Notes under the pieces: generated by a model
Databases searched by the model: none
Seen by the model: only the letters and a program-made list of their open reading frames with translations
Told to the model about the DNA's origin: nothing
Shown: positions 14,857 to 36,374 of the stretch, one piece after another
Numbering within the stretch: position 1 is the first letter of the stretch
Layout of the letters: each line of letters starts with the position of its first letter
Position numbers and translations under genes: made by a program
Origin: a virus
DNA: 40,577 bases
Direction: 5' to 3' (one strand)
Virus record (IMG/VR): IMGVR_UViG_3300009091_000029
Span: 1-40,577 of that record

Positions 14857-14939
14857 ACTCTCTGTTTCTTTTCCTGGTCTACCCTCTTTGGGGTACTCCT
14901 CGAGGTATGCTACCCGCCTGGTAGCCGGTAGCTGGGGTC

Positions 14940-15208: not shown

Positions 15209-15245
15209 GCTTCATCAAACATCCAATAAGGTAGAGGAGCCCACA

Positions 15246-15431: not shown

Positions 15432-17412
15432 GTTAGAGTACACGTCACCCAAAACCCAAAAGGCCCTGGGGCTGCAGAATATTTCTGCTGACCCCTGGTT
15501 CAATGGGTTAGTCATGTCCGGGTGGTCGCTAATTCAGAATGACGACGACTGTAGCGAGGTAGCGGAGCGCTACTCGCTGGCGGAAGAAATTTTCGCCCGC
15601 CCGTGCCCTAGAGTCCCCCGGCATGGGTTCGCGGAGTCCCGTCTAGTCAAGGGCGAAACCTACCCCGCACGCGCGGGGCATCTGTCTGAAATTCTTTGGG
15701 AAGCTAAAGCGTTAGACCCCGGCGCCGAGGTTTTGGTCGGCCGCTGGGTTCCGTCCGAGTCTAGCTCTATCCTCACCCCTTCAGGGCTCGCCATCGGCTG
15801 GCGCCACGACGGCGCTACCGCCGGCCGGGACTCGTTTCTGTTCCCATTTGCCACTCCGGCAGTCATGCCTACCGGGGAGGATTGCGGCGTCAAAGCGCCG
15901 GAAGTCCCATACATTGAGGCGGTCGCAGGCACCGACGGCATCGTGCGTGCCGTTCAACTCCGCGCTGGTCCGATGATTCCGGCCGGACCGCCTAACCGAG
16001 TATACTCGACGCGCGCCGCCGTGCTGGTTCTAGACAGCAGCAAATACGGCGACCTAGAATGGGAAAAGGTATGCTCCGAGGTAGGCGTGAAATACAAGCA
16101 TCGCGGGTGGGAAGATGGTGGCGTCGTCGCCTTGCATCCCGGCGCTACTCAGGCATGCCATCACGCAATCCACGCGGCGGTGGCAGGGATTGCATTTCTG
16201 ACCACCGATTGTGACGGTATCCAGCCGGGCACCGAGCTAAACCAAACGGCGGAAGCGTCCGCGTACTCATGGCGCGCTTTCACCGAGGGAATTCAAGCAG
16301 GCTACCTCGCGTCCCGCTACTCGTTGACCGCAGCGATTGCGGTACTTCACCACGCCACGGCGCTTTCAGGCGAATATGCCTGGTTACTCGGTGCAGCCGT
16401 CGCCACGATTCACCGTTACAGCCTCGCTGCTATCCATGGCGAGCGTCGGCATAAGAAAGGCGGGAAGAAGAAAAAGCTAGACCGCCAGACAATTTACCAG
16501 GCGGTGCTCGAAAATTTCGGCGCCGTGCTGAAAGCACGCCGCGACTTGCCCGATATCCACGCCGAATTCTGCAACCCCGCGCTTTGGTCTTCGTCGTTCG
16601 GTGGTAAGCCGTGGGCAGGATGTGTTGAGGCCGTGGTTAGGCTAGATGAGGCTATCCGGCAGGCGTTGCGTATCGGGTTGCTTACGACCGCGCAGAAGGG
16701 TGGCAAGCAGGCGTCAATCTCCGAGTGTATCTCTGCCGCGCATGTCATAATCAATGCGGCGCACAACACGGGAAAATTTCTCAACAAATGGGTAAGCCAG
16801 AGTAAGTTTGACGCCGCCGCCGTTGCGGACGGCCGGCTGCTATTGAAGGAAACGCCTACACTCTTCAACTGGTACGCGATAAAGCAGGCATTCGCCCTGC
16901 ACCGCGACGTGTCGGAAATTTGCCAGCGCATGGCACGGTCTCACTCCCTTGTCGGCAAGCTGGGCGCCGAGGTTGGCGTGAAGACTGTTAAGGCTCCTGC
17001 ATCCAAGCCGGTCCATGCCGGGCCTAAGCCTACCCCCAAGACGGTCGCGGATGTTACGAACCTGCTCTTGAAGGTTCAAGCCATCCAGAAAACCGACGCA
17101 TGGGTTCACATTCAGGCTGCATTGTGCAGCGGCATGGTCGTGGTCGGCGGATATGCAAAGCTCGACGTGTCGTTGACCGCTCCATTCCTCCCTATGAACG
17201 CGGGTACGTGCTCCGCGTCGTTCGCTGGTTCGGGGACCGTGTACACATTGCTGGGTCGCCCTAAGTCGTGGAAGACTGGCAATCTGCTAGTCGAGAAATT
17301 CTCCGTCGGCACCGATGGGACTTCCGGCGAGGTTATTGTCGCCGTGTTCGTTAGCCCCGAGGGTTCAATCAAGCTCGCGATTCAACATAACGGGGAATCC
17401 CACAATGGCTAA
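15424..17412 (+). CDS. Large protein of unknown function (662 aa)
   Basis: This is the largest gene of the 15-20 kb block. It starts at ATG 15424 with GGAGG six bases upstream; the frame is open to 15322, but that part overlaps the previous gene. I recognise no domain. Visible traits are a mixed alpha/beta N-terminal half, an Ala-rich helical middle with many His residues (about 230-360), a basic stretch GGKKKKLDRQ near 357-366, a helical third quarter, a Pro/Lys linker near 525-545, and a beta-rich C-terminal 110 residues. There is no signal peptide. Base composition differs from the flanking modules. It overlaps the phosphatase gene by eight bases. Confidence 0.75.
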   Translation: MIELEYTSPKTQKALGLQNISADPWFNGLVMSGWSLIQNDDDCSEVAERYSLAEEIFARPCPRVPRHGFAESRLVKGETYPARAGHLSEILWEAKALDPGAEVLVGRWVPSESSSILTPSGLAIGWRHDGATAGRDSFLFPFATPAVMPTGEDCGVKAPEVPYIEAVAGTDGIVRAVQLRAGPMIPAGPPNRVYSTRAAVLVLDSSKYGDLEWEKVCSEVGVKYKHRGWEDGGVVALHPGATQACHHAIHAAVAGIAFLTTDCDGIQPGTELNQTAEASAYSWRAFTEGIQAGYLASRYSLTAAIAVLHHATALSGEYAWLLGAAVATIHRYSLAAIHGERRHKKGGKKKKLDRQTIYQAVLENFGAVLKARRDLPDIHAEFCNPALWSSSFGGKPWAGCVEAVVRLDEAIRQALRIGLLTTAQKGGKQASISECISAAHVIINAAHNTGKFLNKWVSQSKFDAAAVADGRLLLKETPTLFNWYAIKQAFALHRDVSEICQRMARSHSLVGKLGAEVGVKTVKAPASKPVHAGPKPTPKTVADVTNLLLKVQAIQKTDAWVHIQAALCSGMVVVGGYAKLDVSLTAPFLPMNAGTCSASFAGSGTVYTLLGRPKSWKTGNLLVEKFSVGTDGTSGEVIVAVFVSPEGSIKLAIQHNGESHNG

Positions 17413-20919: not shown

Positions 20920-21633
20920 ATGGATTTCGACGCTAAGTACCCGAAAAGTAACGGGAAAAGTGCTGCCAACGACAAAAAGACACCCTCGAGTGGGCAAACT
21001 TCTCCTTCCCATAGCCAGGAGAGCGCCATCCTGGGGAAAAAGAGCCTCTTGGGGCTCCTTCAGGCGCATCAGAGTGCGGCAGAGGGGGCCGAAGTAGCTG
21101 ATTTTACTGCAAAAGAGGTCTCGGCGACCCTGACGGAGCTGACGAGCGACCAGAAAGCCGCACTCTTCGACCTCCTCCTCGGGCTCCCTCCGCAGCTCAT
21201 TGCGGCAGAGCAGGAAACGGAGTGGCCGGACTTCCAGAGCTGGCTCAAGTCACCGTTGGTGGTTGAGTCGCTTCGCAAAGCCTCCCGCCAGCTCTTCGAG
21301 CGTGTCCAACGGGGCGAGTTTGGTCCCATCCCCATCGCGAAAGTCGAAGCGGAGGAGATGATGCGGATCTTGATTCGGACAGCGAAGAGCGGGAAGAGCG
21401 ACGAGACGAAGCGGAAGGCAGCAAACGACGTGCTCAACTACGCCGGACACCTTCCGTCCAAGAAGCCGGAAGACTTCAACGCCAACGACTTCCTCGCCGC
21501 GATGAGCTTCGAGGAGCTGAAGGCGTTTGCGGATCATGGGGAGGTACCAGACAGGTTGCGCGACAAGGCTGCGTTCCTCGTCACGTCGAGCGTGCAGAAG
21601 ATGGAGAAGGCGGTGGATATCACTCCGAAGTAG
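20920..21633 (+). CDS. Putative terminase small subunit
   Basis: This 237-aa protein starts at ATG 20920 with AAGGAG nine bases upstream; the frame is open to 20809 but without a better start. The first 50 residues are polar and probably disordered. Residues 60-237 are helical, with LLGLLQAHQ near the start and a charged DETKRKAANDVLNYAGHLP region near 170-188. No HTH motif is clear. The assignment rests on its place 118 bases before the terminase ATPase gene and on its size. It would recognise phage DNA for packaging. Confidence 0.5.
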   Translation: MDFDAKYPKSNGKSAANDKKTPSSGQTSPSHSQESAILGKKSLLGLLQAHQSAAEGAEVADFTAKEVSATLTELTSDQKAALFDLLLGLPPQLIAAEQETEWPDFQSWLKSPLVVESLRKASRQLFERVQRGEFGPIPIAKVEAEEMMRILIRTAKSGKSDETKRKAANDVLNYAGHLPSKKPEDFNANDFLAAMSFEELKAFADHGEVPDRLRDKAAFLVTSSVQKMEKAVDITPK

Positions 21634-21751: not shown

Positions 21752-22471
21752 TTGGTTGAACCCCTCGCCCCAGACGCGGGACAGGAACATGCCCCCGCGG
21801 CCGAGACCGATGAACTCCTGCTCAAGCTGCGCGCCGAAGCGCGTCTTCGATGCAAGCAACAAGACAACGAGTCGAAATACGCCAACGACCCGTGGTTGTT
21901 TCTTATCGAGTGCGTCTGGACCCTCGATCAGATCACCGGGAAGATCAGGAAGTTTCCGAATCACCCCTATCTTCAATATCTCACCGAAGAGTGGATGAAC
22001 AATCGACTCATGGCAGTAGCAAAGAGTCGAAGAATGATGGTAACGTGGTGGGCAGTTGCACTCCACTACTGGTTGGTCAGATTCCGCCCCGGAACGACCA
22101 TTGCGTTCGTGAGTAGGAAAGAGGGAAGGAATATTTCCGAGGGATCGGCTGAACTCGTCAATCGGGCGAAGTTTATCCACGATCACCTCCCCGGAACACT
22201 CAGCGCGGCGCCGGTAGATTACAAATTCTGCCGTCTCTCGATTCCCTCGAGCTATTCCGAGATCATCGGGATCGGCCAAGGCCCCGATCAGCTCCGACAG
22301 CTCACCGTCACCGCAATCTTCGCCGACGAACTCGCATTTTGGGAACAAGCCAGGGAAACTTTCATCGCATCGCGACCAACAATCGAAGGTGGTGGGCGAT
22401 TCTTGGGAGTCTCGACAGCAAACCCCGGCTTTTTCCAACAAATTGTCGAGGATACCTTCAACCTTCAATAA
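21752..22471 (+). CDS. Terminase large subunit, ATPase part (split gene)
   Basis: This 239-aa protein is the packaging motor half of a terminase. The P-loop-like AVAKSRRMMVTW (88-99) is of the deviant terminase type. Walker B is TAIFADELAFW with D192-E193, and the coupling motif GVSTANPGFF lies at 219-228. The protein stops shortly after, where an intact terminase would continue into its nuclease domain. That domain is encoded separately at 26204-27055. The start is TTG 21752 with AAAGGGAG upstream; an in-frame stop at 21734 rules out an earlier start. Together the halves give about 520 residues, a normal full length. Confidence 0.85.
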   Translation: MVEPLAPDAGQEHAPAAETDELLLKLRAEARLRCKQQDNESKYANDPWLFLIECVWTLDQITGKIRKFPNHPYLQYLTEEWMNNRLMAVAKSRRMMVTWWAVALHYWLVRFRPGTTIAFVSRKEGRNISEGSAELVNRAKFIHDHLPGTLSAAPVDYKFCRLSIPSSYSEIIGIGQGPDQLRQLTVTAIFADELAFWEQARETFIASRPTIEGGGRFLGVSTANPGFFQQIVEDTFNLQ

Positions 22472-22489
22472 TTGCTGCTCGGGAATAAG

Positions 22490-24961
22490 ATGAGAAAACT
22501 CTTCCCTGTATTCTCCCTCCTCCTCCTCTTCTCCATCACGTCTCTCATCTGTTGTAACGTATCCTCCTGGGCAGAAGACATCCAAGCCGACTATGGAGTC
22601 TTCAAAAAGCTCTTTCTTCAGCGTGAGGGGAAGAAAATAGAGCTAGATCCGGTGACAACCCCGGATCTCTTCGACAACTCCGTCGGAACCTGTGAGAACC
22701 GAAAAGCCGTAGAAGGAGCAGTCGCGTTCTGTACAGGGCAAGGATCACAAGCGGTTGTCACAACGAGTCTCACGCCAGGAAGCGTTCCTGGGACAACTCC
22801 CCCGACTGTAACCACAACGACCACGGCAGGGACGACGACGACCTCGTCAACGCTCATCAACGTGACGTTGCGCTACGTGCGTCCTGCCGGGAGCGATACC
22901 CTCTGCGATGGAACGACCAACATCGACGCGGGAAGCGGTGCATGTGCGTGGGCCACGATCTCCAAAGCCGGCGGGGCGGGAGTCATCACGCCGGGGTCGG
23001 CTGGCGCAACGGTCTATGTCGCCCCAGGCACATACACGGGTACGATCAAGACATACACCGTGGGTTCGGCGACGCAGCCGGTTAAATTCATCTCCAGCGT
23101 CCCGTGGGGAGCGATCATCGCGCCGGCTGGCACGTCGTCCAATGCGGTCTGGGAAGTCCGCGGCCCGTATCAGCAGATCAACGGATTCCAATTCACCGCA
23201 CCGGGCTACTCTGGCGCCGTCGCCTGTTACGCATCGCTGGTGAGCACAGGACACCATTGTCAGCTTCTCAACAACTACGTCGCTGGGATTGCGATCGGGG
23301 ATGGGGATAGTTGCCCCTCATTTGGCGCGCTCAATACGGGGGTGCAGGGTGGTGGGGGGCGTCCGTCCGACAGCCTGTACGGCTACAACGTCGTCAAAGG
23401 GAATGTTGTGCGGATCGTGGGTTCTCGACCCAACTGCAATCAGACCCACGGCATCTATGCGGGCGGACCCTACGATGTGATCCAGAATAACCTCGTGTCT
23501 GGTGTCGTCGGGTGGGGAATCAACTATTGGGGGGACATCCGGTACGGAGTCATCGGCAACAATACCGTCTTCAATAATAATCAAGGCGGGATTCTCATCG
23601 GCACCGATGGATACGGCACCTATACGGACGTGCAGTACGTCAACGTGCTCAATAACGCGGTCGTCAACAACGGACTCGCGAGCATTGCGGACGAGATTGG
23701 GGGGATCTCCCTCTACGACAATGGCTCCTCGAACAACCTGTTCAATGGCAACCTGCTCTACGGGAACGTTTCCAAGTACGCTGGCGACGATCAATTCTTC
23801 AAGGGGATGGACGGGGGGTACAATCACGTCCCCTGTGCCTGGCCGTGCGACGACGCCAACGCGAAGTCTGGAACCGACGCGACGACATTCATCAATTTCG
23901 TGCCGGATTGGAACGCAAACCCTGCGACAAACTACCTTCCCGGAAACTACGCGCTGCGGTCCGGCTCCAACGCCATCGACAACGGCACGACGGCATGCGT
24001 GAACGGTGGGTACACCCCGTGCGTCCCGTCGGACGACTTCATTGGCACGGCACGGCCCAAGGACGTGACGTGGGACATCGGAGGATGGGAGTATGATTCC
24101 GGTGCCAGCACGACAACGACGACCGCAACGTCGAGTACCACGTCAACGACGCTGACCTACGCACCAGACTGGCGCTCCTATGTGACTTCAGCTCTCACCA
24201 TGGAAACCTCCGTGACCACAGACAGTGGCGGCGGTTCCTGTGCGTGGGCCAGCTCCGACCTCACGCAGACCTCCAGTCAGGTCGTCGTGGGAAGCTACTC
24301 TGGGAACGACACGACGAACATCGGGAACCAATCCTCGACGTGTACGGCTCTCGCGTACACCGGCGCCTTCACCTGTGGGGGCTGGTGGCGGCGGACGGGC
24401 TCGGCCGGAACGGTGTATCTCATCAGCAAGAAAGGCACCAACAACGGCTACGGCGCACAATACTTCAGCACGGATGTGTTCTGGTACGTCGGGAATGGCA
24501 GCTCAAACTGCGAAATGCAGACCACGACGGACTTTTTCCCCGCAACCAGTGCTTGGGTGTTCTGGGCTGGGATCTCCACGGGAAGCGCCCTCCAGGTGTA
24601 CGGGAACGGTGCGCTTCAGACGGGAACGTGTGGTGGGGGCGGGTGTACGGGATCAGGGACGAGCTGCACCTATTCCGGGGTCGCATCGTCGTCGAACAAC
24701 TTCCTCCTCGGTGGAGATGATTCGGCCAACGGATTCGCCGGCTTCATGGACGACCTCTTCTGCGACACGTACTCTGCGAGCAACGCCGACGACGGCGTCG
24801 TTGATCCAGCGGCCCTATGTCGCATTCTCGCGTGTGGACTCGACGGACAGGGCTGCCAATGCAACGGAACAGTATATGCTTCGGGTACAGGCGACGGAAC
24901 CCGATATAAGCTCTACGGAAACGGGTGTTCCCTGCCGAATTGTAACCAAGAAACTCCATAA
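22490..24961 (+). CDS. Secreted-type tailspike/adhesin: beta-helix plus LamG-like domain
   Basis: This protein of about 823 aa starts at ATG 22490. The N-terminus is a signal peptide (basic MRK, hydrophobic 4-20, possible cleavage after SSWA). A Thr-rich linker (about 100-120) leads to a right-handed beta-helix-like region (about 125-530) with the calcium/pectate-lyase-like opening RYVRPAGSDT and repeated GNNTVFNNN-type turns. A second Thr linker (about 540-560) precedes a LamG/concanavalin-like domain with paired Cys (about 565-780). The domains suggest polysaccharide binding or degradation. A signal peptide is unusual for a tailspike. The gene lies between the two terminase halves, and its composition is richer in G than the later genes. 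Confidence 0.75.
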   Translation: MRKLFPVFSLLLLFSITSLICCNVSSWAEDIQADYGVFKKLFLQREGKKIELDPVTTPDLFDNSVGTCENRKAVEGAVAFCTGQGSQAVVTTSLTPGSVPGTTPPTVTTTTTAGTTTTSSTLINVTLRYVRPAGSDTLCDGTTNIDAGSGACAWATISKAGGAGVITPGSAGATVYVAPGTYTGTIKTYTVGSATQPVKFISSVPWGAIIAPAGTSSNAVWEVRGPYQQINGFQFTAPGYSGAVACYASLVSTGHHCQLLNNYVAGIAIGDGDSCPSFGALNTGVQGGGGRPSDSLYGYNVVKGNVVRIVGSRPNCNQTHGIYAGGPYDVIQNNLVSGVVGWGINYWGDIRYGVIGNNTVFNNNQGGILIGTDGYGTYTDVQYVNVLNNAVVNNGLASIADEIGGISLYDNGSSNNLFNGNLLYGNVSKYAGDDQFFKGMDGGYNHVPCAWPCDDANAKSGTDATTFINFVPDWNANPATNYLPGNYALRSGSNAIDNGTTACVNGGYTPCVPSDDFIGTARPKDVTWDIGGWEYDSGASTTTTTATSSTTSTTLTYAPDWRSYVTSALTMETSVTTDSGGGSCAWASSDLTQTSSQVVVGSYSGNDTTNIGNQSSTCTALAYTGAFTCGGWWRRTGSAGTVYLISKKGTNNGYGAQYFSTDVFWYVGNGSSNCEMQTTTDFFPATSAWVFWAGISTGSALQVYGNGALQTGTCGGGGCTGSGTSCTYSGVASSSNNFLLGGDDSANGFAGFMDDLFCDTYSASNADDGVVDPAALCRILACGLDGQGCQCNGTVYASGTGDGTRYKLYGNGCSLPNCNQETP

Positions 24962-24979
24962 CCACCCACTTCTAAGTCT

Positions 24980-25087
24980 ATGACTCCCCGCCTCATCACC
25001 CTCCTCCTGCTCGCTGCGCTCTGTACCGTCGTGATCCTCGGGTCGATGGTCGATGTGTGGGATGTGTTGTGGGGGTACATTGAATGA
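24980..25087 (+). CDS. 35-aa transmembrane peptide
   Basis: The frame runs from ATG 24980 to a TGA that overlaps the next start (ATGA). It has one hydrophobic helix (LITLLLLAALCTVVILGSMV) and ends VWDVLWGYIE. No ribosome site is clear. Position before a membrane-anchored coiled-coil protein suggests a lysis accessory such as a small holin or antiholin. Confidence 0.45.
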   Translation: MTPRLITLLLLAALCTVVILGSMVDVWDVLWGYIE

Positions 25088-25422
25088 TCCCTCCTGTTCC
25101 CGTGCCCCAACCAACGCCGTGCGGCGCAACGAGCTGTCCACTCTGGGTCAGTTTGAAAGAGCATTTCGACAAGCAGTACGAAGCGAGCGAGAAGGCGATC
25201 GAATTGGCTCGTAAAGGACTCGAATATCGCTTTGAAAAGATTCTGTCGGATCAACTTCGACAGTATCCTGACCGAATCGCGCACGATAAACTCGAAACGA
25301 GACTCGCAAAGCTCGAAGAAAGCGCAGCCCTCACGACAGGAAAGCTCGCTGCAGTCGTCGCTGTCATCACGCTTGGTCTCGCAACAATCTTCAGTCTCCT
25401 TCATATCCTTCAGCGGGGATAG
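25084..25422 (+). CDS. Coiled-coil protein with C-terminal membrane helix, holin/XhlA-like
   Basis: This 112-aa protein has a Pro/Cys-rich N-terminus (PCGATSCPLW), a charged coiled coil (about 22-80) and a C-terminal hydrophobic helix (about 85-108, LAAVVAVITLGLATIFSLL). The shape resembles XhlA-like holin partners and other small lysis proteins. No endolysin is visible in the window. It is coupled to the 35-aa membrane peptide upstream. Confidence 0.6.
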   Translation: MIPPVPVPQPTPCGATSCPLWVSLKEHFDKQYEASEKAIELARKGLEYRFEKILSDQLRQYPDRIAHDKLETRLAKLEESAALTTGKLAAVVAVITLGLATIFSLLHILQRG

Positions 25423-25433
25423 AAGCGTAGTAG

Positions 25434-25464
25434 TTAACAATCTTCAAACAAGTAAACATATAAA
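25434..25464 (+). promoter_or_regulatory. Weak promoter candidate
   Basis: TTAACA (25434-25439) and TATAAA (25459-25464) are separated by 19 bases within a short AT-rich stretch of the 116-base gap. The spacing is longer than ideal. It would drive the genes from 25539, including the terminase nuclease gene. Confidence 0.3.
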
Positions 25465-25538
25465 AGGGCTTTCCATCTTCTCGTCTTCGTGCTACGTTTT
25501 CCCGTCTCCTCCACTCCAACCAGCAAAGGAACTCTACT

Positions 25539-25838
25539 ATGCCCGCAATCATCAGTCAGTCCGGGACGTGGACAACGCTCTCCACGCCCACCACGGGGCA
25601 GGCGCGGACCGATGCCAACGATCCGAAGCTGCTCAACTTCGCCTCCAGCGATGCTGCAGCTCGTGGGTACGCCGGTCCCTACAACGCTTCCACCAACATC
25701 CCTGACGAGATCGTGCAATTCGTCCAGCTCGTCGCCAACGCCTACTCCATCTCCTTCTGGCCGGCTGCGGTCCTCGTTCGCACCTGGCTGAGTGGTCTCG
25801 TCAACGGCGGCGCCCCTCGCAGCTTCCCCAATCCATAA
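25539..25838 (+). CDS. Small hypothetical protein, possible virion component
   Basis: This 99-aa protein has AAAGGA upstream of ATG 25539. It is Ser/Thr/Ala-rich at the N-terminus with a hydrophobic FVQLVANAYSISFWPAAVLV stretch near residue 62-81, too polar at the ends for a sure membrane helix. No family was recognised. From here the coding strand becomes strongly C-rich. Confidence 0.65.
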   Translation: MPAIISQSGTWTTLSTPTTGQARTDANDPKLLNFASSDAAARGYAGPYNASTNIPDEIVQFVQLVANAYSISFWPAAVLVRTWLSGLVNGGAPRSFPNP

Positions 25839-25868
25839 CATCGTAGTGAGAGAAAAAGGAACCCTTTC

Positions 25869-26192
25869 ATGGCTAACCTCACGATCACCTCCACAGGAAC
25901 CGCATCGGTCCTCGACATCCGCCCACAGCAGCACGGCTCAACCATTGTCGAGGGCGTCTCGTCTCTCGCCTCTCCCACGGCGAACACCACGGGTCTCGGC
26001 AACGACGACCTCGCCTACCGCACAGGGAGCGACGCCAACGGCCAGCCCATTTTCAACTTCAACAACTGGTTCAGCGAGCTTTCTCAATTCATCGGAATCA
26101 TGGCTGCCTCCCAATCCATCACCCCGGCTGCCGCAATCCTTCGGCTGAAGCTCATGCTGCGCGCAATCGAAGAGCAGGGTCCGCAGGCGTAA
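25869..26192 (+). CDS. Small hypothetical protein, possible virion component
   Basis: This 107-aa protein has a beta-rich N-terminus (TITSTGTASVLDI), a middle with Gly/Asn, and a helical C-terminal third. An AAAGGA site precedes ATG 25869. It ends 11 bases before the terminase nuclease gene, which has no ribosome site of its own and may depend on reinitiation from here. No domain was recognised. Confidence 0.65.
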   Translation: MANLTITSTGTASVLDIRPQQHGSTIVEGVSSLASPTANTTGLGNDDLAYRTGSDANGQPIFNFNNWFSELSQFIGIMAASQSITPAAAILRLKLMLRAIEEQGPQA

Positions 26193-26203
26193 TCCCTTCC
26201 TCC

Positions 26204-27055
26204 ATGCCCACGACCGAAACACTCGCTCAATCCATTGACACCCCACTCGAAGGGGTCAAGGCGTGGACGAACGTCTACAATCGCTTCCGTGTTGTCGAAG
26301 TCCGCTACACCGCCGACCCCGAAAAGCGATCCCAGGAATGGATTCTCGCGAACAAGTCTGGCATGCCCGATCGCGGGTGGAAGCGCGAGTACGAAATCAA
26401 CTGGTCTTGCCCCGCGGGTGAGCCTGTCATCCCCGAATTCGATCCCAACGTCCATGTTCGCCCCCTCCTCCCGCTCCGTGGGTGCCGCATCGTCCGTGGG
26501 TGGGACCCAGGCTTCGTTTCTCCCTCTGTCGTCATCGGCCAAGTCTCAGTCCACGGCCAGCTCCTCATCCTGAACGAAGTCTGCCCCTTCAATACCACGC
26601 TCGACTCCCTCATCCCCATGGTCAAGTCCGCCACCATCGCGACGTTCCCAGATCCCTCCGCACCATTCGACGCAGGTGACCCCGCCTCAGACGCCGAAAC
26701 CGCCCTTGGGAACATCCTCAAGACGATGCGCACCCACGGCATCCATCTCTCCATCAATCGTCCTGGAACAGAGGAATCTTACGATTCTCTCCGCTCCCGC
26801 ATGATGAAGATGGTCTACATCCCTGGTCTTGGCCACCAACCCGCCTTCTTCGTTCACCCCCGCTGCAAGACCCTCATCGCTGCGCTCTCCGGCGCGTTCT
26901 CCCGCTCTCCCCATCCACCGTACTCCCCGATCAAGACCCACCCCTACAAAGACATCGTTGACGCCCTTCGGTATCTCAACGACAACCTCCAATTCTCTAA
27001 TCGCCAATTCCAGAGCGATCTTCGCTCCATGGCAACAGTAGATCGTGTCTGGTAA
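26204..27055 (+). CDS. Terminase large subunit, nuclease part (split gene)
   Basis: This 283-aa protein starts in the linker typical of a terminase (GVKAW then VVEVRYTADPEKR, about 17-42) and REYEINW (61-67). The RNase H-fold nuclease follows: RGWDPGF with D101, DAGDP with D156/D159, and HPYKDIVDALRY with D250 and D253. These acidic residues fit the metal site that cuts concatemeric DNA. No ATPase motif is present; the ATPase gene is 3.7 kb upstream. The start ATG 26204 lacks a Shine-Dalgarno site. Composition is C-rich, unlike the ATPase half. Confidence 0.85.
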   Translation: MPTTETLAQSIDTPLEGVKAWTNVYNRFRVVEVRYTADPEKRSQEWILANKSGMPDRGWKREYEINWSCPAGEPVIPEFDPNVHVRPLLPLRGCRIVRGWDPGFVSPSVVIGQVSVHGQLLILNEVCPFNTTLDSLIPMVKSATIATFPDPSAPFDAGDPASDAETALGNILKTMRTHGIHLSINRPGTEESYDSLRSRMMKMVYIPGLGHQPAFFVHPRCKTLIAALSGAFSRSPHPPYSPIKTHPYKDIVDALRYLNDNLQFSNRQFQSDLRSMATVDRVW

Positions 27056-27083: not shown

Positions 27084-27686
27084 ATGAAGCGTTTCCTCTT
27101 CGTCACCCTCCTCTTCGCTGTTGTCGCCACCTCGGCATGGGCAATCCGTCGCGATACCCTCACCGAGCGGTCGAGCGGCGAAATCCTTCCCTCGCTCATC
27201 GTCGATGGAATTCTCGAGACCCATCGGGCGTTCGACCCCTCATTCTTCTTCTGCGGCCAAAACGTCAACGCATCTACCGTCTACTTCAGCCCCGTTGTCG
27301 CCACGTTCAACGGCTCCGCTGTCAAGCCGATCCCCGGTGACGGCGTCTGTGACGGTTTCGATGGCGCCACCGAAGCCACACAGTCTCTCTTGGTCTCTGC
27401 CCAAATGCCAGCACTCCGCTGTTCCGCCATCACGTGTTGGGTGTCGTCCGATCCCGCTTCCAACGTCGTCTTCACCTTCCGTGCAGCCGACGCAGCAACG
27501 GCCGGTGGCACGTTGACCTGCACGGTCCCCGGCACGGGCTCTGCCCAAAACTGCGTCGGACGCGCCGAGGCAGGGAAGGGGGCTTACGTCCCAGCCGCAG
27601 CCGAGATCGCAATCCAAGCCGTCACGCTTGAAGACCTCTCACTCCAGGACGCCGCCTGCACCGTGCAGTGCTCCGCCGCCGAGTAA
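27084..27686 (+). CDS. Exported Cys-containing protein
   Basis: This 200-aa protein starts at ATG 27084 with AAAGGA six bases upstream. The signal peptide MKRFLFVTLLFAVVATSAWA is near perfect. The mature part is beta-rich with eight Cys (for example CGQNV, GVCDGF, RCSAITCW, TCTV, NCVG, ACTVQC), which suggests disulfides formed in the periplasm. No family was recognised. It follows the terminase nuclease gene by 28 bases and opens the exported-protein cluster. Confidence 0.75.
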   Translation: MKRFLFVTLLFAVVATSAWAIRRDTLTERSSGEILPSLIVDGILETHRAFDPSFFFCGQNVNASTVYFSPVVATFNGSAVKPIPGDGVCDGFDGATEATQSLLVSAQMPALRCSAITCWVSSDPASNVVFTFRAADAATAGGTLTCTVPGTGSAQNCVGRAEAGKGAYVPAAAEIAIQAVTLEDLSLQDAACTVQCSAAE

Positions 27687-27688
27687 CG

Positions 27689-27781
27689 ATGTCCATCACA
27701 GGCGTTCCCATGATCGGGATTCTTGTTGGAATCGCCGTCGGAGTCACTGTCGCAATCTATATCATCTTCGTGGATCTCTAA
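27689..27781 (+). CDS. 30-aa transmembrane peptide
   Basis: The frame begins two bases after the previous stop and encodes one hydrophobic helix, MIGILVGIAVGVTVAIYIIF, between short polar ends. No ribosome site is visible, so translation would rely on reinitiation. It may be a genuine small membrane peptide or chance. Confidence 0.4.
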   Translation: MSITGVPMIGILVGIAVGVTVAIYIIFVDL

Positions 27782-27809
27782 GGAGATTTTTCTCGTAGGA
27801 CTACCCACC

Positions 27810-28211
27810 ATGAAGAGAATCATGCGCTACAGAATCTTCATCTCCGCGATCCTCCTCTTCTTCGCTAGCCTTTCCCACGCTGCTGTCCTCTCGACAAACT
27901 CTGGGACACTTCAAGCTGGACGGGCTACCACAGGCGATCTCACAAACGTCGTCTTCGTCACGGGGCCTCGCGGCGCACTCTGGATCACCTGCTCCGGCAA
28001 CACCGGCACCGTCGCGTGGACTGTCCAGCAATCCCCAGACAACACCAACTACGCCGTCGTCACAAACTCTGGCGCAACCAGCGACTCGCTCACCTTTGCC
28101 GACGTTGACGCTGCGGTTCCGATCTTTGGCCCCACCGGCTACTACAAGGTCAACCTCGGCACCTGTACAGGCTGCGCCTTCTCCTGCTTCTATAGAATCT
28201 CCGACGAATGA
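27810..28211 (+). CDS. Exported single-domain beta-sandwich protein
   Basis: This 133-aa protein starts at ATG 27810 with TAGGA upstream. The signal peptide is MKRIMRYRIFISAILLFFASLSHA. The mature domain has W-V-Q-S-P-D, TNSGA, VPIFGPTGYYKVNL and CTGCAFSC-YR. The same pattern recurs in the first domain of the next gene, so the two are duplicates. It is a likely adhesin or decoration domain. Function is unknown. Confidence 0.75.
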   Translation: MKRIMRYRIFISAILLFFASLSHAAVLSTNSGTLQAGRATTGDLTNVVFVTGPRGALWITCSGNTGTVAWTVQQSPDNTNYAVVTNSGATSDSLTFADVDAAVPIFGPTGYYKVNLGTCTGCAFSCFYRISDE

Positions 28212-28230
28212 AACTTCGGTGAGAACATCC

Positions 28231-29283
28231 ATGTCTCACATCACACGGAAGCTCATTATCGCGACATTCCTCGTCTTCATCTACTCTTCAGCAGGAGCAG
28301 TATCGTCTACCTCTGGCCCCCTTGGAGTCGGAATCACCGTCTCGGGAGATTTCCCCAACATCATCGAGGTGAGGAACCCAAGCAGCGATCCCTGGTTAAG
28401 CATCACCTGCGTCAAGAACTCTGGGACCATCACATCCTGGTCTGTTCTTCAATCCCACGATTCCATCTCCTGGGCTCCCGTGCGCACCTCCGGCGCCGAA
28501 AGCATGGTCTTTGGGAATGTCTCGGGCACTGTCCCAATCCCCTCTCCTTCAGGTTTCTACAAGGTCAACCTCGTCTGCACGACCTGCGACGTGTCCTGTT
28601 GGTATCGTGGAGAAGAAATCTCCGTAACGACCCCAATCCCCATCACAGACACCTTCAACCGCACAGCCCTCAACACATCTGGACCATGTTCCAAAGATCC
28701 CTGTTGGACGATGGGAGGAGGAGTCCTCGAAATCTCCGGTTCCACCCAACTCGACTACTCTTCAGGTGATCCGGGATCTGCGTATTGGAATTCCACGACC
28801 CTCGGCAACTCCATTCCCTCAACAGGGTACGCCTGTACGCAACTCGACGTCAGCGCCACGACGGGATATACAGGAGCCTGCCTTCAAACATCCGCCCCAA
28901 CCACTGCATGCCCTGCCGGTAACTGCATGCTCTGCTGCGAAACAAACAACACAAATACCTCCTACATCGCAACATGCAACATCCCGACACTCGACCACAG
29001 CGAAGGCACCTCGACGTGGGGCAGTGCGGGAACCCTCGCGACTGGCGAATGGGTTGGAATCCGCCGTACCGCAGAAAACACCATCTACTGTTTCGATGTA
29101 CAAAGCACCGGTGCAGTCACCGATAGTGCGGCAATCACCGCAACAGACGAATGTGCGAGCTTCTCTCCAATAGTCTACCCAGGCGTAAAGGACAGAGAAG
29201 CCGGCACAAACAAGACAATAAATACCTTCCACGCTGGTCCAGAACCAACGCCACCCATAGGGCGCTGTGGTAGAACAACCTGA
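28231..29283 (+). CDS. Exported two-domain protein, LamG-like C-terminal part
   Basis: This 350-aa protein starts at ATG 28231. The signal peptide runs to about residue 23 (YSSAGA). Residues 24-130 repeat the domain of the upstream gene (WSVLQSHDS, VRTSGAES, VPIPSPSGFYKVNL, CTTCDVSCWYR). Residues 135-340 begin ITDTFNRTALN, as in LamG-like domains, and contain paired Cys. It is probably a carbohydrate-binding surface protein. The stop overlaps the next start (TGATG). Confidence 0.7.
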   Translation: MSHITRKLIIATFLVFIYSSAGAVSSTSGPLGVGITVSGDFPNIIEVRNPSSDPWLSITCVKNSGTITSWSVLQSHDSISWAPVRTSGAESMVFGNVSGTVPIPSPSGFYKVNLVCTTCDVSCWYRGEEISVTTPIPITDTFNRTALNTSGPCSKDPCWTMGGGVLEISGSTQLDYSSGDPGSAYWNSTTLGNSIPSTGYACTQLDVSATTGYTGACLQTSAPTTACPAGNCMLCCETNNTNTSYIATCNIPTLDHSEGTSTWGSAGTLATGEWVGIRRTAENTIYCFDVQSTGAVTDSAAITATDECASFSPIVYPGVKDREAGTNKTINTFHAGPEPTPPIGRCGRTT

Positions 29284-29624
29284 TGCCCGACATCGCCAAG
29301 CCACCCCGAGAAAAGGTCGAACCGACCTTCCTCCGTATCGTCGGAGGAGATGCGGTCACCTCGGTCTTTGGCCGTACAGGCGACGTGATCGGTGAACCGC
29401 TCGACTACTACGCAACCGACCACTGGATGCTCAACACGAGCCGCCTTCTCGGTCGCACCACCGTCGATTCCGGCCCTACCGAAGAGATCACCGTAGGAAG
29501 TGGTCTCCTCCTCTCTGCTGGCACCCTCTCCGCAACTGGTGGTGGGGGTGGCGGCGGCGATTGGGACTACGGACTCATCACCGAAGCCTCCTCCTCAAAC
29601 CAAGATTGGGGAGGTCTCGTTTAA
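29283..29624 (+). CDS. Short tail-fibre-like protein
   Basis: This 113-aa protein has no signal peptide. VTSVFGRTGDV (about 26-36) is a motif common in phage tail fibres. GSGLLLSAGTLSATGGGGGGG follows the usual fibre repeat style and ends in a Gly hinge. It may be a fibre adaptor that works with the next protein. Its ATG 29283 overlaps the preceding stop. Confidence 0.65.
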   Translation: MPDIAKPPREKVEPTFLRIVGGDAVTSVFGRTGDVIGEPLDYYATDHWMLNTSRLLGRTTVDSGPTEEITVGSGLLLSAGTLSATGGGGGGGDWDYGLITEASSSNQDWGGLV

Positions 29625-30179
29625 GTGTCTACCCAAGTCCAGCGGAGGCGAGGGACGACTGTTCAGCACGCGACTTTTACCGGCGCCCTCGGAGAACTCA
29701 CTGTTGACACCGATCTCAACACCCTTGTCGTCCACGACGGGTCCACTGCTGGCGGATTCCCCCTCATGGGGCGTTTCACCCATGTCTTCCACGTCCCATC
29801 CGTCGTGCCCTGGGCGTGGGACAACATGCCTGCCGCCAACACCTTTCTCTTTGGTTCCCATCGTCACGTCACCCGTCTTTCTCTCTCAGGATTCACCCAA
29901 TGTCGAATCGTTGTCAACGTCCAAACTGCCGCAGCAACCAACGCCAAACTCATCCTCCGTTACAAAGCCACAACCTTCTCCACCACTGTAACCGACTACT
30001 CCGACATCGGGACCAGTGAAGTCAGCGTCGTTGTCGATGCTTCAAACAGCGTCGTCTCTTCCTCGTGGATTCCTCTCGCATCAGGAGCAAAAGCTGATGT
30101 CTTCGTCACCGTCGTCGGGTACGGTGGCAATGGCGCGACCGACCCAGTATTCGGCACCATAGAAGGGCACTTTCGATGA
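29625..30179 (+). CDS. Tail fibre with phage-type N-terminus
   Basis: This 184-aa protein starts at GTG 29625, right after a stop, with GGGGAGG nine bases upstream. The N-terminus (VQRRRGTT, HATFTGALGELTVDTD, TLVVHDGSTAGGFPL) is a widespread tail-fibre attachment region. Residues 60-184 form a beta-sandwich-like domain with W-W-N-x-P, TFLFGSHRHV, LRYKATT, LASGAKADV and a final GHFR. That domain is shared with the exported protein encoded next. It is the likely receptor-binding part. Confidence 0.75.
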   Translation: MSTQVQRRRGTTVQHATFTGALGELTVDTDLNTLVVHDGSTAGGFPLMGRFTHVFHVPSVVPWAWDNMPAANTFLFGSHRHVTRLSLSGFTQCRIVVNVQTAAATNAKLILRYKATTFSTTVTDYSDIGTSEVSVVVDASNSVVSSSWIPLASGAKADVFVTVVGYGGNGATDPVFGTIEGHFR

Positions 30180-31327
30180 CACGTTTTCTCAGCCTCGCCG
30201 TTCTCACCCTCTGGACTCTTATCGTCGTTCTCTCTGGGATCGCAGGTGCCCAGACTCTCATGTGTACTGGATGCGTCCCCGGTGCGGCTATCGTGAGCGA
30301 TGGTGTCGGCCCGACACAGATTGACGAGACGGGCAACTACTCGTTCACCACCCTCAGTGGAAAGGTGAAGCGTAATACCTCCGCAGTAGCAGACAACGAC
30401 TGTACTGGCGAGCAGGGATCGTGGTGGTACGACACCACCGACAGCGCCTTTGAATTCTGCAACGCAAACTCCGGGGCTCCCGCCACTGTCGGCGCAGGCA
30501 GCGGAGATGTCTCGGATGTCGGTCCCGGTTGCGCAAGCGGCGCCTGCTTCACCAACGGCGTCGTCACAACAGGTACAGTCCTCCTGAATTGGGAAGGCAC
30601 CGCCGCCGACGCGAACGACTTCACGATCAACGTCCCCGCGAATCCAGGGTCAACGATAAGCTGGACCGTCCCCGATGTCGCCGCAGCACTTACATTCCCC
30701 AGCGGTACCGACGCCGTTGTCGGACGTGCGGCAACCGAGACTCTCACCAACAAGACCCTTTCTGTTGGCGGGACAGTCACCGAGGGAACAGGATACATCA
30801 ACTTCGCAGCAGTTGCCGCAGGGGCCTGCGCTGCGGGTGAATATTGGGTCCAAGCCTCCAGCGGCACGACATCCCTCTCCTTCTGCGACAACGGCGTCCT
30901 TCGCACCCTCACCGACGCGACGCGCTTCCTCCTTCCCATCTATACCGCAGACGCAGTGGATTGGGAATGGACTAACCAGCCCTCCTCGGCCACCTTCCTC
31001 TTCGGCTCCAGCCGACACGTCGTGAAGCTGGATACCACAAATTATAGCGCCGTTCGCTTGACGACCAACGTCGTCGTGGCGGGTGGCACCACAAGCCAAC
31101 TGGAGCTGCAGTACAAGACCACCGCATGCACGGTCATCGGTAGCTACCTTGCCATCAGCGGAACGCCTGTGGTGACATCCCTCACATCAACGGGCGTCAT
31201 CGCTTCAGCTTGGCAAACCCTCTCCGCAGGCGCCAAGGCCGCCGATGTCTGCCTCGCGGTCATCGGAACAGCGGGAGTATCTACCGGCGACCCACAGCTT
31301 GGATCAATCACCGCCGAATTCCGGTAA
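30176..31327 (+). CDS. Exported tail-fibre-like protein sharing a C-terminal domain with the neighbour
   Basis: This 383-aa protein starts at ATG 30176 (ATGA overlap). The signal peptide ends near SGIAGAQ (about residue 25), followed by CTGCVPGA. The middle includes ATETLTNKTLS, a motif of phage fibres. The last 125 residues (W-W-T-N-Q-P, TFLFGSSRHVVKLD, LQYKTT, LSAGAKAADV, final AEFR) are clearly related to the C-terminal domain of the upstream fibre. So the same putative binding domain is made once without and once with an export signal. Confidence 0.75.
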   Translation: MTRFLSLAVLTLWTLIVVLSGIAGAQTLMCTGCVPGAAIVSDGVGPTQIDETGNYSFTTLSGKVKRNTSAVADNDCTGEQGSWWYDTTDSAFEFCNANSGAPATVGAGSGDVSDVGPGCASGACFTNGVVTTGTVLLNWEGTAADANDFTINVPANPGSTISWTVPDVAAALTFPSGTDAVVGRAATETLTNKTLSVGGTVTEGTGYINFAAVAAGACAAGEYWVQASSGTTSLSFCDNGVLRTLTDATRFLLPIYTADAVDWEWTNQPSSATFLFGSSRHVVKLDTTNYSAVRLTTNVVVAGGTTSQLELQYKTTACTVIGSYLAISGTPVVTSLTSTGVIASAWQTLSAGAKAADVCLAVIGTAGVSTGDPQLGSITAEFR

Positions 31328-31330
31328 CCC

Positions 31331-32086
31331 ATGTCCCTCCTCCTCCTCCTCCTGCTCCTGGTCCTCGCTCCCGCGAGGTCAGCGATTGCACAGCAGATGT
31401 CCTGCACGGGATGTGTGCCTGGGGCGTCACTCGTGGACGCCTCGGTCACGCCCGCAAAGATCCTCGGTTCTCCGACCGACGAATACTATCTCACCTACGA
31501 GGCGAGTGGGAGCACCTGGGAGTGGCAGAGCATCGTCGCAGCGGCGTACACCACGAGCGTAAGCCTTCCTCCAGCCCTGTGCGTTGGTTCAACGGCATCG
31601 TCCGCGTGGGACAACCCCACCACCAACGCCCCCGCAGCCGCCTGCACCGGGACCAACGTTCGCAAAGCGACACTGGATTTCGACGCGGCGACGGATGAGT
31701 CGATCCAATACAACACCATACGCCTTCCGAGTAATTGGGCGGCGTCCTCGGATATCGTCTTCAAGCTGACGTGGTCTGCCAATGCCACGACCGTAACCAA
31801 CGCTCGATGGTGTGCCCAGGTGATCTGTCGCGCAGACGGGGAAACGGACGACCAGGCGTTTGATACCGAGGGATGCCTCGATGACGCCAACAAGACTGGC
31901 GCAGTCAATCAACTCAACGACGCTACGATCACGTTGACCAATGGTGCAGGGCAGACGGACACTTGCGCAGCCGGAGAAAACCTCCACTTGCTCGTCTATA
32001 GAGACGCAAACCATGGCAACGATACCCTCGCCGTCGATGCGAGCCTCTCGGCCATAGAACTCGTGTTGACGCTGAATCCAGCATGA
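31331..32086 (+). CDS. Exported beta-rich protein
   Basis: This 251-aa protein has a Leu-rich signal peptide (about residues 1-21, ending RSAIAQ), then MSCTGCVPGASLVDASVTPAK, matching the start of the mature upstream protein. Residues 90-250 form a beta-sandwich-like domain with several Cys. From this gene to about 33800, composition is less C-rich than in the flanking genes. Its stop overlaps the next start. Confidence 0.7.
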   Translation: MSLLLLLLLLVLAPARSAIAQQMSCTGCVPGASLVDASVTPAKILGSPTDEYYLTYEASGSTWEWQSIVAAAYTTSVSLPPALCVGSTASSAWDNPTTNAPAAACTGTNVRKATLDFDAATDESIQYNTIRLPSNWAASSDIVFKLTWSANATTVTNARWCAQVICRADGETDDQAFDTEGCLDDANKTGAVNQLNDATITLTNGAGQTDTCAAGENLHLLVYRDANHGNDTLAVDASLSAIELVLTLNPA

Positions 32087-33351
32087 TCCTTCCTTTCCTC
32101 ATCCTCCTGAGTCTGTTTCCAACAGCTTCTTGGGCACTGACATCGGCCAAGTCCTGCACTGGGGTGTCTGGAGGTGGCGTCGGCTCGGGCGCATCATGGA
32201 CAAATCCCACGAACGCATGCGTCAACAACACAACACGAGCGACCTACAGTGGTACAGGGCAAGCAGTCTTGGCGGTAAAGGATTGGGGATTCTCGATTCC
32301 CTCGGATGCTACAGTCAATGGGGTCACCGTAACGTACAATAGCTGTGGTCCGAATACGCAAGAAGCACGTCGGCAGATTTACTCTATGCTGACCACGGAC
32401 GGATCTACTGCATGTAATACGACGTGGAAAAGCACAAACTCCGGGGCCGGCGCGCTCGCGTTTCCATATTTCTCGGGCTGTACGGCAACGGCTGGATCGG
32501 ATGGGGATGAGGTCGCCGGGAGCACGACGGATACTTGGTGTACCTCGACGCTCACCCCAACCCAAGTGAATAGTGCGAATTTTGGCGTCTTCATCAAAGA
32601 CTACAACACTACGGCACACCTACTCGCCGCAGACCTCGTCTCGATCTCCATCGACTACACCGAAGCCACGACCACAACCACATCCTCAACCAGCACCTCG
32701 ACCACCTCCACAACGCTCGCTGGTGGCCCAGCACGTCGCGCTGCGTGGATTCATGGCCGCCCTCTGCCTCCAGCCGCAACGTTTACTCCTACCGGAAAAG
32801 ACGCGCAGATCGCGAATGCCGGCTACGTGACATACAATTTCGGGGCTGAAACTGCCTCCACGATAGGAACGGACGCGACGTATGTCTTTCGTATGCTCTT
32901 GGCCTTCGACATCTCTTCCTTGACCGGGAAGACGGTAACTGGATGTAGGTTGACGATCCAAACAGGAAGCAGCAATCCTGGCACTGGCACTACAGGCACC
33001 ATCTATCGGATCACTCGCTCTGATTGGGTTGAAGGCGCTGGAACCGGTACGCCGGTTGCTGGCGCTACCTGGAACGATTACGACGGATCGACGTGGACGA
33101 CTCCTGGGAGCGATTACGACGGCTCAACCCCAACTCCAGTTTCATTTACACCCCCAGTAGGGGCAGCCGTGTTCTATGAATTCCCAGACATCTCCGCCTT
33201 CTGCCAGGACGCAATCACGAGTCGCAGCGGGAGCCTTGACCTGCTGATCCGACAGGACACCGAGACGCTTGGAGCCCACGCATTCAACATGCGGACAAAA
33301 GAAAGTGCCACGACTTCGACCAAGCCAAAGTTGGTAGTGACCTACCAATAG
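32083..33351 (+). CDS. Exported two-domain protein with Thr linker and DNRLRE-like domain
   Basis: This 422-aa protein has a signal peptide ending at SWA (residue 18). A Cys-rich N-terminal domain spans about 20-195, and a Thr/Ser linker (TTTTTSSTSTSTTSTTL, about 197-213) follows. The C-terminal domain begins near 240 with RMLLAFDISSL and GCRLTIQTG, contains WVEG then ATWNDYD, and ends TKPKLVVTY. These are hallmarks of DNRLRE-type surface domains. It is likely an adhesin. The linker matches those of the tailspike at 22490. Confidence 0.75.
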   Translation: MILPFLILLSLFPTASWALTSAKSCTGVSGGGVGSGASWTNPTNACVNNTTRATYSGTGQAVLAVKDWGFSIPSDATVNGVTVTYNSCGPNTQEARRQIYSMLTTDGSTACNTTWKSTNSGAGALAFPYFSGCTATAGSDGDEVAGSTTDTWCTSTLTPTQVNSANFGVFIKDYNTTAHLLAADLVSISIDYTEATTTTTSSTSTSTTSTTLAGGPARRAAWIHGRPLPPAATFTPTGKDAQIANAGYVTYNFGAETASTIGTDATYVFRMLLAFDISSLTGKTVTGCRLTIQTGSSNPGTGTTGTIYRITRSDWVEGAGTGTPVAGATWNDYDGSTWTTPGSDYDGSTPTPVSFTPPVGAAVFYEFPDISAFCQDAITSRSGSLDLLIRQDTETLGAHAFNMRTKESATTSTKPKLVVTYQ

Positions 33352-33368
33352 CGAACAAGGATATGGAC

Positions 33369-33800
33369 ATGATCGCCCGAATCTCCATCGTGATCTTCCT
33401 GCTCGGCATGGCCGCGCCTGTGTGGGCAAAGAATATCAGTGCTGCCACGCGAGCCCAAGTCATCCTCGCGCTTAAGGAATACTGCCGCTCGGTCGGCCCC
33501 GACATCCGGGATGATCGGAGGACTGATCCGGCACATGTCTGGAAATGCTTGGTGACCATCCTAATCGAGAATAGCAAATTGAAGCAGGAGGAGATCATCT
33601 CTGCTGCAATGGCTGCCGTCCAGGCTAAAGCTGATGCAGTCATTGCTACGGAGGCGGATGCTGAAGCTGTGGCAGCAAAAGCAGCGGCAACCCAGATCCT
33701 CACCGACTTGACCGACGCGAGTACGGAGTTGGGTATCGTTATTGCAACTACGACGACCACGACCATAGAGTCAACAACTACGACTACCGCTCCAGACTGA
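33369..33800 (+). CDS. Exported helical protein with Thr-rich tail
   Basis: This 143-aa protein starts at ATG 33369, eight bases after AAGGA; an ATG at 33363 is too close. The signal peptide ends near APVWA. The mature part has two Cys, then an Ala-rich helix (about 75-115), and ends in a Thr tail (TTTTTTIESTTTTT). It may be an anchor or stalk that works with the Thr-linker adhesins. Confidence 0.65.
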   Translation: MIARISIVIFLLGMAAPVWAKNISAATRAQVILALKEYCRSVGPDIRDDRRTDPAHVWKCLVTILIENSKLKQEEIISAAMAAVQAKADAVIATEADAEAVAAKAAATQILTDLTDASTELGIVIATTTTTTIESTTTTTAPD

Positions 33801-34166: not shown

Positions 34167-36374
34167 ATGCCTTCAACCCTCCACCCAAACCTCGCCGCCG
34201 ACTCTTCCCTCCGTCTGCGCGTCGAAGCCTCCCTCCTTCCGCGCCTCCAACGTATCCGTGACGACCGCTCCACCTACACCGACACCTGGCTCCGCTACTG
34301 GAACATCTGGTCCTCCGAGCGCGATGCCAACCAAGCCTACGTCGGTCGCTCCAAGACCTACCTCTCCATCGGTCGCCGGATCATCGAAAACTGGGTCCAG
34401 AAGCTCAAAATCTCCCTCTTCCCCAACGACGAATGGCACTCAGTCATCGCCCTCCGTGAAGCCTTCGAGCAACGTGTCCCTGTCGTTCGCGCTCTCAACG
34501 ACTACTTCCTCCGCAAGTATATGTCCGTTGAGCGGAAGTCTGGCCCCTACCTCCGTCAACTCGTCACGCTAGGCACCTCCCCCTCCTCAACCGTCTGGCG
34601 CTACGACTCTCGCGTCCTCCCTGTCCTCAAAGATGTCCTCGATTCCGACGGCAACCTCACTGGCCGCCAAATCCGCTCACTCGAAAACGTCATCGACTAC
34701 ATCGGTCCCACCTTCCGCCTCGTAGACCTCTTCTCCTGGTACATCGACCCCGTTACCGTCCTCGACGTGAACGACGCTTCCGTCATCTTCGAGGATATGC
34801 TCCTTCCCGTCGAGCGTCTCATCGCCATGGCGGCGTCTCCCATCAATCCCGACGATGAATCCATGGGAGTCGAAGTCGAGAACATCCGCGAGGTCCTTGC
34901 TCTTGAACCCACCGGGCCCGAAACCAAGGACAAATTCTCCTCCCTCATCCTCCGTCTCCAACGCAAGGGCTTCTCTCGTCCCTCCTCCTTCTCCCCCAAG
35001 AACGCGCCCTTCGACTGCACCGCTGTTTGGGTCAAGGCTGACTACGACGACACGGGTCTCTCATGGTGGCGCATCTCCGTCGTCGCTGACAAGGTCATCA
35101 CCAAGATCCAAAAGAACCCCTTCTGGATCGGCACCACCTCCTACCTCGCAGGAAAATTCATCGAAGTCCAATCCGAATTCTATGGCCGCGCTCTCCCGGA
35201 AGTATTCGCCCCAATGCAATACTTCCGCAACGATGTAGCCAACCAATCCAACGACGCCCTCGTCTGGTGCATGAACCCGATCTCCGTCGTAGACGCCTAT
35301 AAGGTCCAAGATCCCCAGTCCATCCGCATGCGTCCCGGTGCCAAGTGGCTCGCAGATCCCGAAGCCGTTAAATTCATGGAGCCCCCAAAGGAAACTCCAT
35401 CCATCGGCTTCCAAGCCACCGCACAAATCATCGCATTGATGAACGACGTCTCCAACGTCGCCGCTCTCGGTGGCGCTGGCTCTGGCCCTCGCGTCCGCGG
35501 CAAAGCAGTCAACACCGCAACCGGTGCCTCGATCCTCCAACAAGAAAACGCCGTCCAGGTCATCGACGTTGTCCGAAACCTCGAGCAGCAAGTCTTCATC
35601 CCTCTCCTCCGCATGACGCACGGTCTTTCCGTCCAGTGCCTCGCTGATCCCCTCCTCCTCCGCATTGTCGGCTCCGACGGCGCGTCCATGGTTGAAAAGA
35701 AGCTCACAGCCTCCGACATCGCAGGCGACTTCGACTTCAACTGGCTCGGTTCCACCGCAACCTCCAACCGCGAGGTTCAAACCGCTCAACTGCTCAACTT
35801 CCTCCAGATCGTCACCCGCGTCCCTCCCCAGCTCTACCCCAACATCACCATCGACTTCTCCGTTCTCCTCAAGACCATCTATACCTCCATGGGGCTCCGC
35901 AACGCCTCCCAAATCATCAAGGAGAACACCCGAAAGATCACCATCGACCCACGGGTCGAAAACGATCTCATCCTCGTTGGTCGGGGCGAAGAAGTCGCCG
36001 TCTCCATGACCGACAACGACCAAGAGCACATCCAAGTCCACTCCACTGCGAGCTTCAACTCCACTGATCTCTGGGTTCGCGGTCAATTCGAGAACCACAT
36101 CCAGCAACACCAAATCTCCGCGCAAGCCAAACAAATGATGCTCCAACAACGCCAACTTCAACAGCTCGGCGCTCCAGGCATGCCTTCCCCCGGCAACCCT
36201 ACACAACCACAAGGATTATCACCTTCGGGTCTCCCTCCGGCACCGGGAGGCATGCCTGGACCAACACCTCTGTCCCCCGGCAACCCAACTCCCAACCCCT
36301 CTCGTATGCGTCAAACCAACGACTTCGGTGACGCCATGCGCGCCACCCCACGCGGACCCCAACTTCTTTCGTAA
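34167..36374 (+). CDS. Portal protein
   Basis: This 735-aa protein has a size typical of podovirus portals. The N-terminal half is helical and charged with aromatic residues (YTDTWLRYWNIW, SKTYLSIGRRIIENWVQKL). A central alpha/beta part follows, and the C-terminal third has VRNLEQQVFIPLLRM and a Gln-rich helix, then a Pro/Gly tail (about 650-735). The portal forms the ring through which DNA enters and leaves the capsid. The assignment rests on overall pattern, size and position before scaffold and capsid. Its ATG directly follows the previous stop. Confidence 0.75.
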   Translation: MPSTLHPNLAADSSLRLRVEASLLPRLQRIRDDRSTYTDTWLRYWNIWSSERDANQAYVGRSKTYLSIGRRIIENWVQKLKISLFPNDEWHSVIALREAFEQRVPVVRALNDYFLRKYMSVERKSGPYLRQLVTLGTSPSSTVWRYDSRVLPVLKDVLDSDGNLTGRQIRSLENVIDYIGPTFRLVDLFSWYIDPVTVLDVNDASVIFEDMLLPVERLIAMAASPINPDDESMGVEVENIREVLALEPTGPETKDKFSSLILRLQRKGFSRPSSFSPKNAPFDCTAVWVKADYDDTGLSWWRISVVADKVITKIQKNPFWIGTTSYLAGKFIEVQSEFYGRALPEVFAPMQYFRNDVANQSNDALVWCMNPISVVDAYKVQDPQSIRMRPGAKWLADPEAVKFMEPPKETPSIGFQATAQIIALMNDVSNVAALGGAGSGPRVRGKAVNTATGASILQQENAVQVIDVVRNLEQQVFIPLLRMTHGLSVQCLADPLLLRIVGSDGASMVEKKLTASDIAGDFDFNWLGSTATSNREVQTAQLLNFLQIVTRVPPQLYPNITIDFSVLLKTIYTSMGLRNASQIIKENTRKITIDPRVENDLILVGRGEEVAVSMTDNDQEHIQVHSTASFNSTDLWVRGQFENHIQQHQISAQAKQMMLQQRQLQQLGAPGMPSPGNPTQPQGLSPSGLPPAPGGMPGPTPLSPGNPTPNPSRMRQTNDFGDAMRATPRGPQLLS

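Follow-up and report, generated by a model that had tools for sequence, protein, structure and literature searches.

The window analysed here, the complete IMG/VR record IMGVR_UViG_3300009091_000029, is a linear sequence of 40,577 bp from an uncultured soil-type phage and possibly a fragment. Its terminase large subunit (TerL) is encoded as an ATPase gene (ORF1) and a nuclease gene (ORF2). This arrangement had been proposed in the initial annotation, with the genes 3.7 kb apart; the ORF coordinates and a gap of 3732 bp are confirmed, and the split is real. The gap contains what was first described, i.e., a signal-peptide adhesin-like gene, two membrane genes and two small genes (Table 1).

Table 1. 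Terminase halves, gap genes and packaging partners in the window (L numbers designate related loci).
Feature	Position	Strand	Remarks
Putative terminase small subunit (TerS)	20920..21633	+	directly upstream of ORF1; phrog_2538 TerS, E 0.007
ORF1, ATPase half (NsubI core)	21752..22471	+	239 aa, TTG start
Signal-peptide adhesin/lectin-like gene	22490..24961	+	sub-threshold Laminin_G_3, E 4.9e-4
35-aa membrane peptide gene, lysis-type	24980..25087	+	read from sequence
112-aa membrane gene, holin-like	25084..25422	+	
Small gene 1, 99 aa	25539..25838	+	kept in gaps of L006, L009, L010 (alignment)
Small gene 2, 107 aa	25869..26192	+	kept in gaps of L006, L009, L010 (alignment)
ORF2, NsubII-like segment (~residues 24-75), hinge and RNase H nuclease	26204..27055	+	283 aa
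Portal protein (probable)	34167..36374	+	

The two halves and the position of the cut

ORF1 is a T4-gp17-type terminase ATPase core. It has Walker A K91, Walker B D192/E193 and an S/T coupling motif at 221-223 (STAN 221-224), and ends shortly past the coupling motif, in agreement with the initial annotation. K91, R93 and E193 are invariant in 52/52 homologues, and the Walker A has a deviant form, KSRRMMVT, common to fused relatives. The AlphaFold2 model, with an alignment of relatives as input, reaches pLDDT 93.7. Its best PDB match by Foldseek is the T4 gp17 ATPase (2o0h, E 1.3e-11), and the ORF1 profile matches gp17 at residues 97-288 (E 2.8e-20).

ORF2 is a terminase RNase H nuclease. Its AlphaFold2 model (alignment of relatives as input) has pLDDT 87.7, and Foldseek relates it to phage D6E TerL (E 6e-8), the G20c nuclease (5m1k, E 7e-5) and the P74-26 terminase, whereas searching PDB sequences with the ORF2 profile produced no credible match. 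Among the nuclease acids listed initially, D101 (45/45), D156 (41/45), D159 (44/45) and D253 (42/45) are conserved. D250 is not (23 D, 21 H), which makes it, on alignment evidence, unlikely as a catalytic residue. At the end of ORF2 (window 27035-27055) the motif ..A..D..W is kept in the window clade and the stretch just before it varies; partner- or portal-binding by this tail is possible.

Each ORF has intact catalytic residues and a confident terminase fold, although single-sequence Pfam and PHROGs scans of the halves are weak and profiles from relatives were needed. Of the features that define a TerL, ORF1 provides the P-loop ATPase (Walker A, Walker B, coupling motif) and ORF2 the C-terminal RNase H-fold nuclease with acidic triad; a third, both domains on one polypeptide, is absent from the window and its split relatives.

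The initial annotation placed the start of ORF2 in the usual linker, and this placement has to be corrected. In an hhalign alignment built on 31 TerL rows, the junction falls near gp17 residue 302, and ORF2 residues 24 to ~75 pair with gp17 303-362. NsubII of gp17 reportedly comprises residues 1-58 plus 314-360, with the hinge next (work of Sun et al. from 2007). Judged from this alignment, the chain is cut ahead of the ATPase/nuclease linker, within the ATPase domain itself, where the nucleotide-binding core (NsubI) gives way to NsubII. NsubII (the "transmission" subdomain), hinge and nuclease are therefore all placed on ORF2, separate from the NsubI engine. In nearer relatives, split ATPase halves end in a stretch of the form ..S(S/T)A.PGFF..(L/I)V.., and nuclease halves begin just ahead of ..G(V/I)....(V/L)..HYTADP. 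Reviews describe NsubII as the transmission subdomain and the hinge as essential (PMC9958956). When T4 gp17 is separated at the linker/hinge, ATPase and nuclease activities are kept and DNA translocation is lost (PMC3012670). As far as the alignment can tell, the natural split spares this hinge.

Recurrence, selection and genomic setting

Relatives were collected by scans of viral contigs and one GTDB collection, followed by HMM classification of ORFs. A viral contig scan with ORF2 alone found nothing; a two-row alignment then gave 45 loci. This 45-locus scan relied on nuclease motifs only, so that the sample was not selected for splitting. The two domains lie in different ORFs in 74 classified contigs and in one ORF in 22 (near-duplicates included); the non-redundant tree holds 54 split and 19 fused forms. 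The split is far beyond chance, because the same split point recurs across the lineage, in dozens of independent contigs. Its recurrence in unrelated assemblies supports the original suggestion of separate proteins for motor and nuclease. All split members found are uncultured contigs or MAGs; more distant ones occur in MAGs of Selenomonadales, other Bacillota and Latescibacterota.

The gap between the halves ranges from an overlap of a few bases to over 7 kb. Eight contigs, drawn from several metagenomes, encode the halves divergently on opposite strands, with kilobases between them; these contigs form one clade in the concatenated tree. Both genes of this group are observed to be under strong purifying selection (dN/dS ~0.03-0.14). 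Each of the 16 whole records, window included, contains exactly one ATPase half and one nuclease half, and none has a fused TerL. No further copy of either half is present in the window record, and a second complete terminase, named beforehand as a refutation, was found neither there nor in the 15 relatives. Two arrangements were seen besides these: a long-branch row with reversed order, the nuclease half ahead of the ATPase half on the same strand (L041:2193-3825), and intein-like inserts of ~270-300 aa inside the domain of an ATPase ORF and of a nuclease ORF (L019:2399-3976 and L040:1854-3728).

Within the concatenated tree of 73 rows, the window belongs to a 19-member clade (support 100), of which 19/19 are split, by at least 0.7 kb or onto opposite strands. 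ATPase and nuclease distances in this clade correlate with r 0.97, a value inflated by co-inheritance in one genome. The search for relatives with an intact gene, suggested with the initial annotation, did recover single-ORF fused TerLs of ~510 aa in the same lineage (L014-L017, L028, L029 and L212, the last from Megasphaera massiliensis). As fused forms nest inside split clades, ~7 split/fused changes are required. The fused loci are candidate re-fusions, or else the splits arose repeatedly at one point; the tree cannot discriminate between an old split with several re-fusions and repeated splitting.

A TerS-like gene precedes ORF1 in the window and in relatives, and the window gene can be aligned with its counterparts directly ahead of the ATPase half in L138, L140, L172 and L182. 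In L172 a portal homologue directly follows the nuclease half. Gap genes were aligned across four genomes (window, L006, L009 and L010). Small gene 2 is a probable paralogue of small gene 1. Gaps of relatives contain holin-like and lysozyme-like genes, but the gaps of L006, L009 and L010 showed no ORF similar to the ~800-aa adhesin-like product, for which reason this gene is regarded as variable cargo.

ORF2 differs in base composition from ORF1, as noted at the outset, chiefly in its GC skew and its third-position C (ORF2 0.55, portal/capsid genes 0.57-0.59, ORF1 0.37). It also lacks a Shine-Dalgarno site as claimed, yet this is unremarkable, since the same holds for several other window starts that were checked. 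A foreign origin of ORF2 on these two grounds was rejected, its third-position C matching the downstream structural module. The neighbourhood of TerS and ORF1, the L172 portal, the gap-gene comparison and the ORF2 composition fit two separately moving gene modules with the adhesin-like gene as cargo. Elsewhere in the window, GC skew changes sharply at 14500-15500 (~15 kb, with a gene strand switch) and at ~25.5 kb (start of the structural module). Genes with signal-peptide-like N termini, unusual for a late structural region, occupy 27084-34166 between nuclease half and portal. A DNA polymerase I-like gene lies at 4843-7299 (-), and its N-terminal part resembles uracil-DNA glycosylase by eye only.

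A probable two-gene terminase and its alternatives

Very probably the halves make up a genuine large terminase encoded by two genes; they are synthesised as separate proteins and most likely associate non-covalently. ORF1 would be the ATP-hydrolysing engine (T4-gp17-type NsubI), and ORF2 would supply the RNase H nuclease/translocation domain together with the hinge and the transmission subdomain NsubII. Assembly in trans most likely runs through the NsubI/NsubII interface around ATP, which the halves would restore to yield a single functional TerL protomer at the portal. The sequences directly show two intact genes with conserved catalytic residues, a lineage-wide split at one point, opposite strands in sisters, purifying selection and single copies of the halves; association, interface, packaging and cutting are inferred, with no evidence at the protein level. 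The viability of cultured Arthrobacter AY phages with an independently split TerL speaks in favour of this reading. TerS-like and portal genes, the packaging partners, are both in the window, packaging activity itself being inferred. The loss of translocation upon domain separation in T4 counts against a two-gene terminase, though the T4 cut was at the hinge (PMC3012670).

It is improbable, though the strongest of the alternatives, that the ATPase half pumps alone in phi29-like manner while the nuclease half, as a free enzyme, cuts the concatemer at initiation and termination, without a common protomer. The structure prediction for ORF1 by itself gives a confident, well-folded domain, and the halves can occupy different strands beside different partners (TerS and portal, respectively). 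The NsubII segment expected to close the ATP cleft, however, sits on the nuclease protein, and fused relatives occur within split clades, so that the halves act as one unit in those relatives. A decaying terminase, with a complete TerL elsewhere and missing from an incomplete contig, is very unlikely: the window record may be a fragment, but dN/dS of 0.03-0.14 in relatives, retained catalytic residues, and one copy of each half without a fused TerL in 16 records speak against decay.

Rejoining of the halves, either in the RNA by a group I/II intron or in the protein by a split intein, has precedents in the Jug phage terL, broken by group I introns (PMC12363816), and in the inteins of Mic1 TerL (PMC7156551), but is scarcely credible here. 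With Rfam matches accepted up to E 5, the window gap shows no intron family, nor do 18 other loci at gathering threshold; neither half has an intein-sized extension. A ribozyme or intein at the junction, the criterion for an intron- or intein-split terL, is thus not met. In many relatives the halves overlap by a few bases, and the opposite strands in eight contigs exclude single-transcript splicing, frameshifting and read-through there. These arrangements already refute rejoining for those relatives, and a frameshift explanation was rejected on them as well. An assembly or binning error fusing two genomes, the other refutation named initially, could draw only on the composition shift near 25.5 kb, which fits module boundaries. 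The gap genes can be aligned in four genomes, and contigs from many metagenomes as well as MAG contigs show the same split, eight contigs having the halves on opposite strands; this independent recurrence already refutes the error, whose remaining probability is negligible.

The two-gene terminase bears on T4-type motor models, in which the covalent hinge from ATPase to nuclease/translocation domain is essential and a gp17 cut there kills packaging. A cut one subdomain earlier predicts that NsubII, hinge and nuclease must stay covalent, and that the engine can be held by an interface alone. The window lineage is a natural test of how motor parts must be joined to work. A tentative extension, possible but unlikely, is a hetero-oligomeric ring in which the engine is one protein and the transmission-plus-nuclease another, each exchangeable. 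During cutting and pumping, independent swapping or regulation of the nuclease/transmission protein would then be possible, which a one-chain TerL does not permit. In practical terms, pipelines requiring a full-length TerL hallmark may score such phages as incomplete or misread TerL trees.

Comparison with known terminases

The C-terminal nuclease joined to TerL was described as a universal feature by Iyer et al. (PMC7824862). T4 gp17 (PF03237 Terminase_6N type) has the same ATPase core fold and motifs, RNase H nuclease logic and NsubII-hinge-nuclease order (found here in ORF2), but on one polypeptide, while the window chain is cut at ~residue 302 with the genes kilobases apart. Fused TerLs of the same lineage are homologous across both halves and differ in being one ORF. 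In the Jug phages the TerL coding sequence is likewise in pieces, but is rejoined by RNA splicing; the window has no intron and its sisters use opposite strands. When the GenBank phage collection was queried by tblastn with several split halves, the matches opened were all single ORFs, with no cultured split homologue among them. A Komagataeibacter phiKX gene considered as a terminase half was rejected as a single 388-codon gene.

Split TerL is already known and viable, since cultured Arthrobacter phages of cluster AY encode an independently split TerL, with its domains in consecutive genes (PMC11920828, PMC12820723). AY phages (BillyTP, BlueShadow) resemble the window in using one gene for the ATPase domain of TerL and another for its nuclease domain, but differ in their consecutive overlapping genes, unrelated TerL family and apparent hinge cut. 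The BillyTP products have 359 and 198 aa, with a PF20441 nuclease, and from these lengths the AY cut is apparently at the hinge, after NsubII. The BillyTP TerL gave no profile match to the present halves, and the criterion for an AY-like case, a homologous TerL cut at the same boundary, is not met by the window lineage. The literature on split terminases, subscription papers not covered, yielded only the AY, Jug and Mic1 cases. As far as this literature shows, the new elements here are the terminase family concerned, the position of the cut inside a domain, the long distance between the halves and their location on opposite strands.
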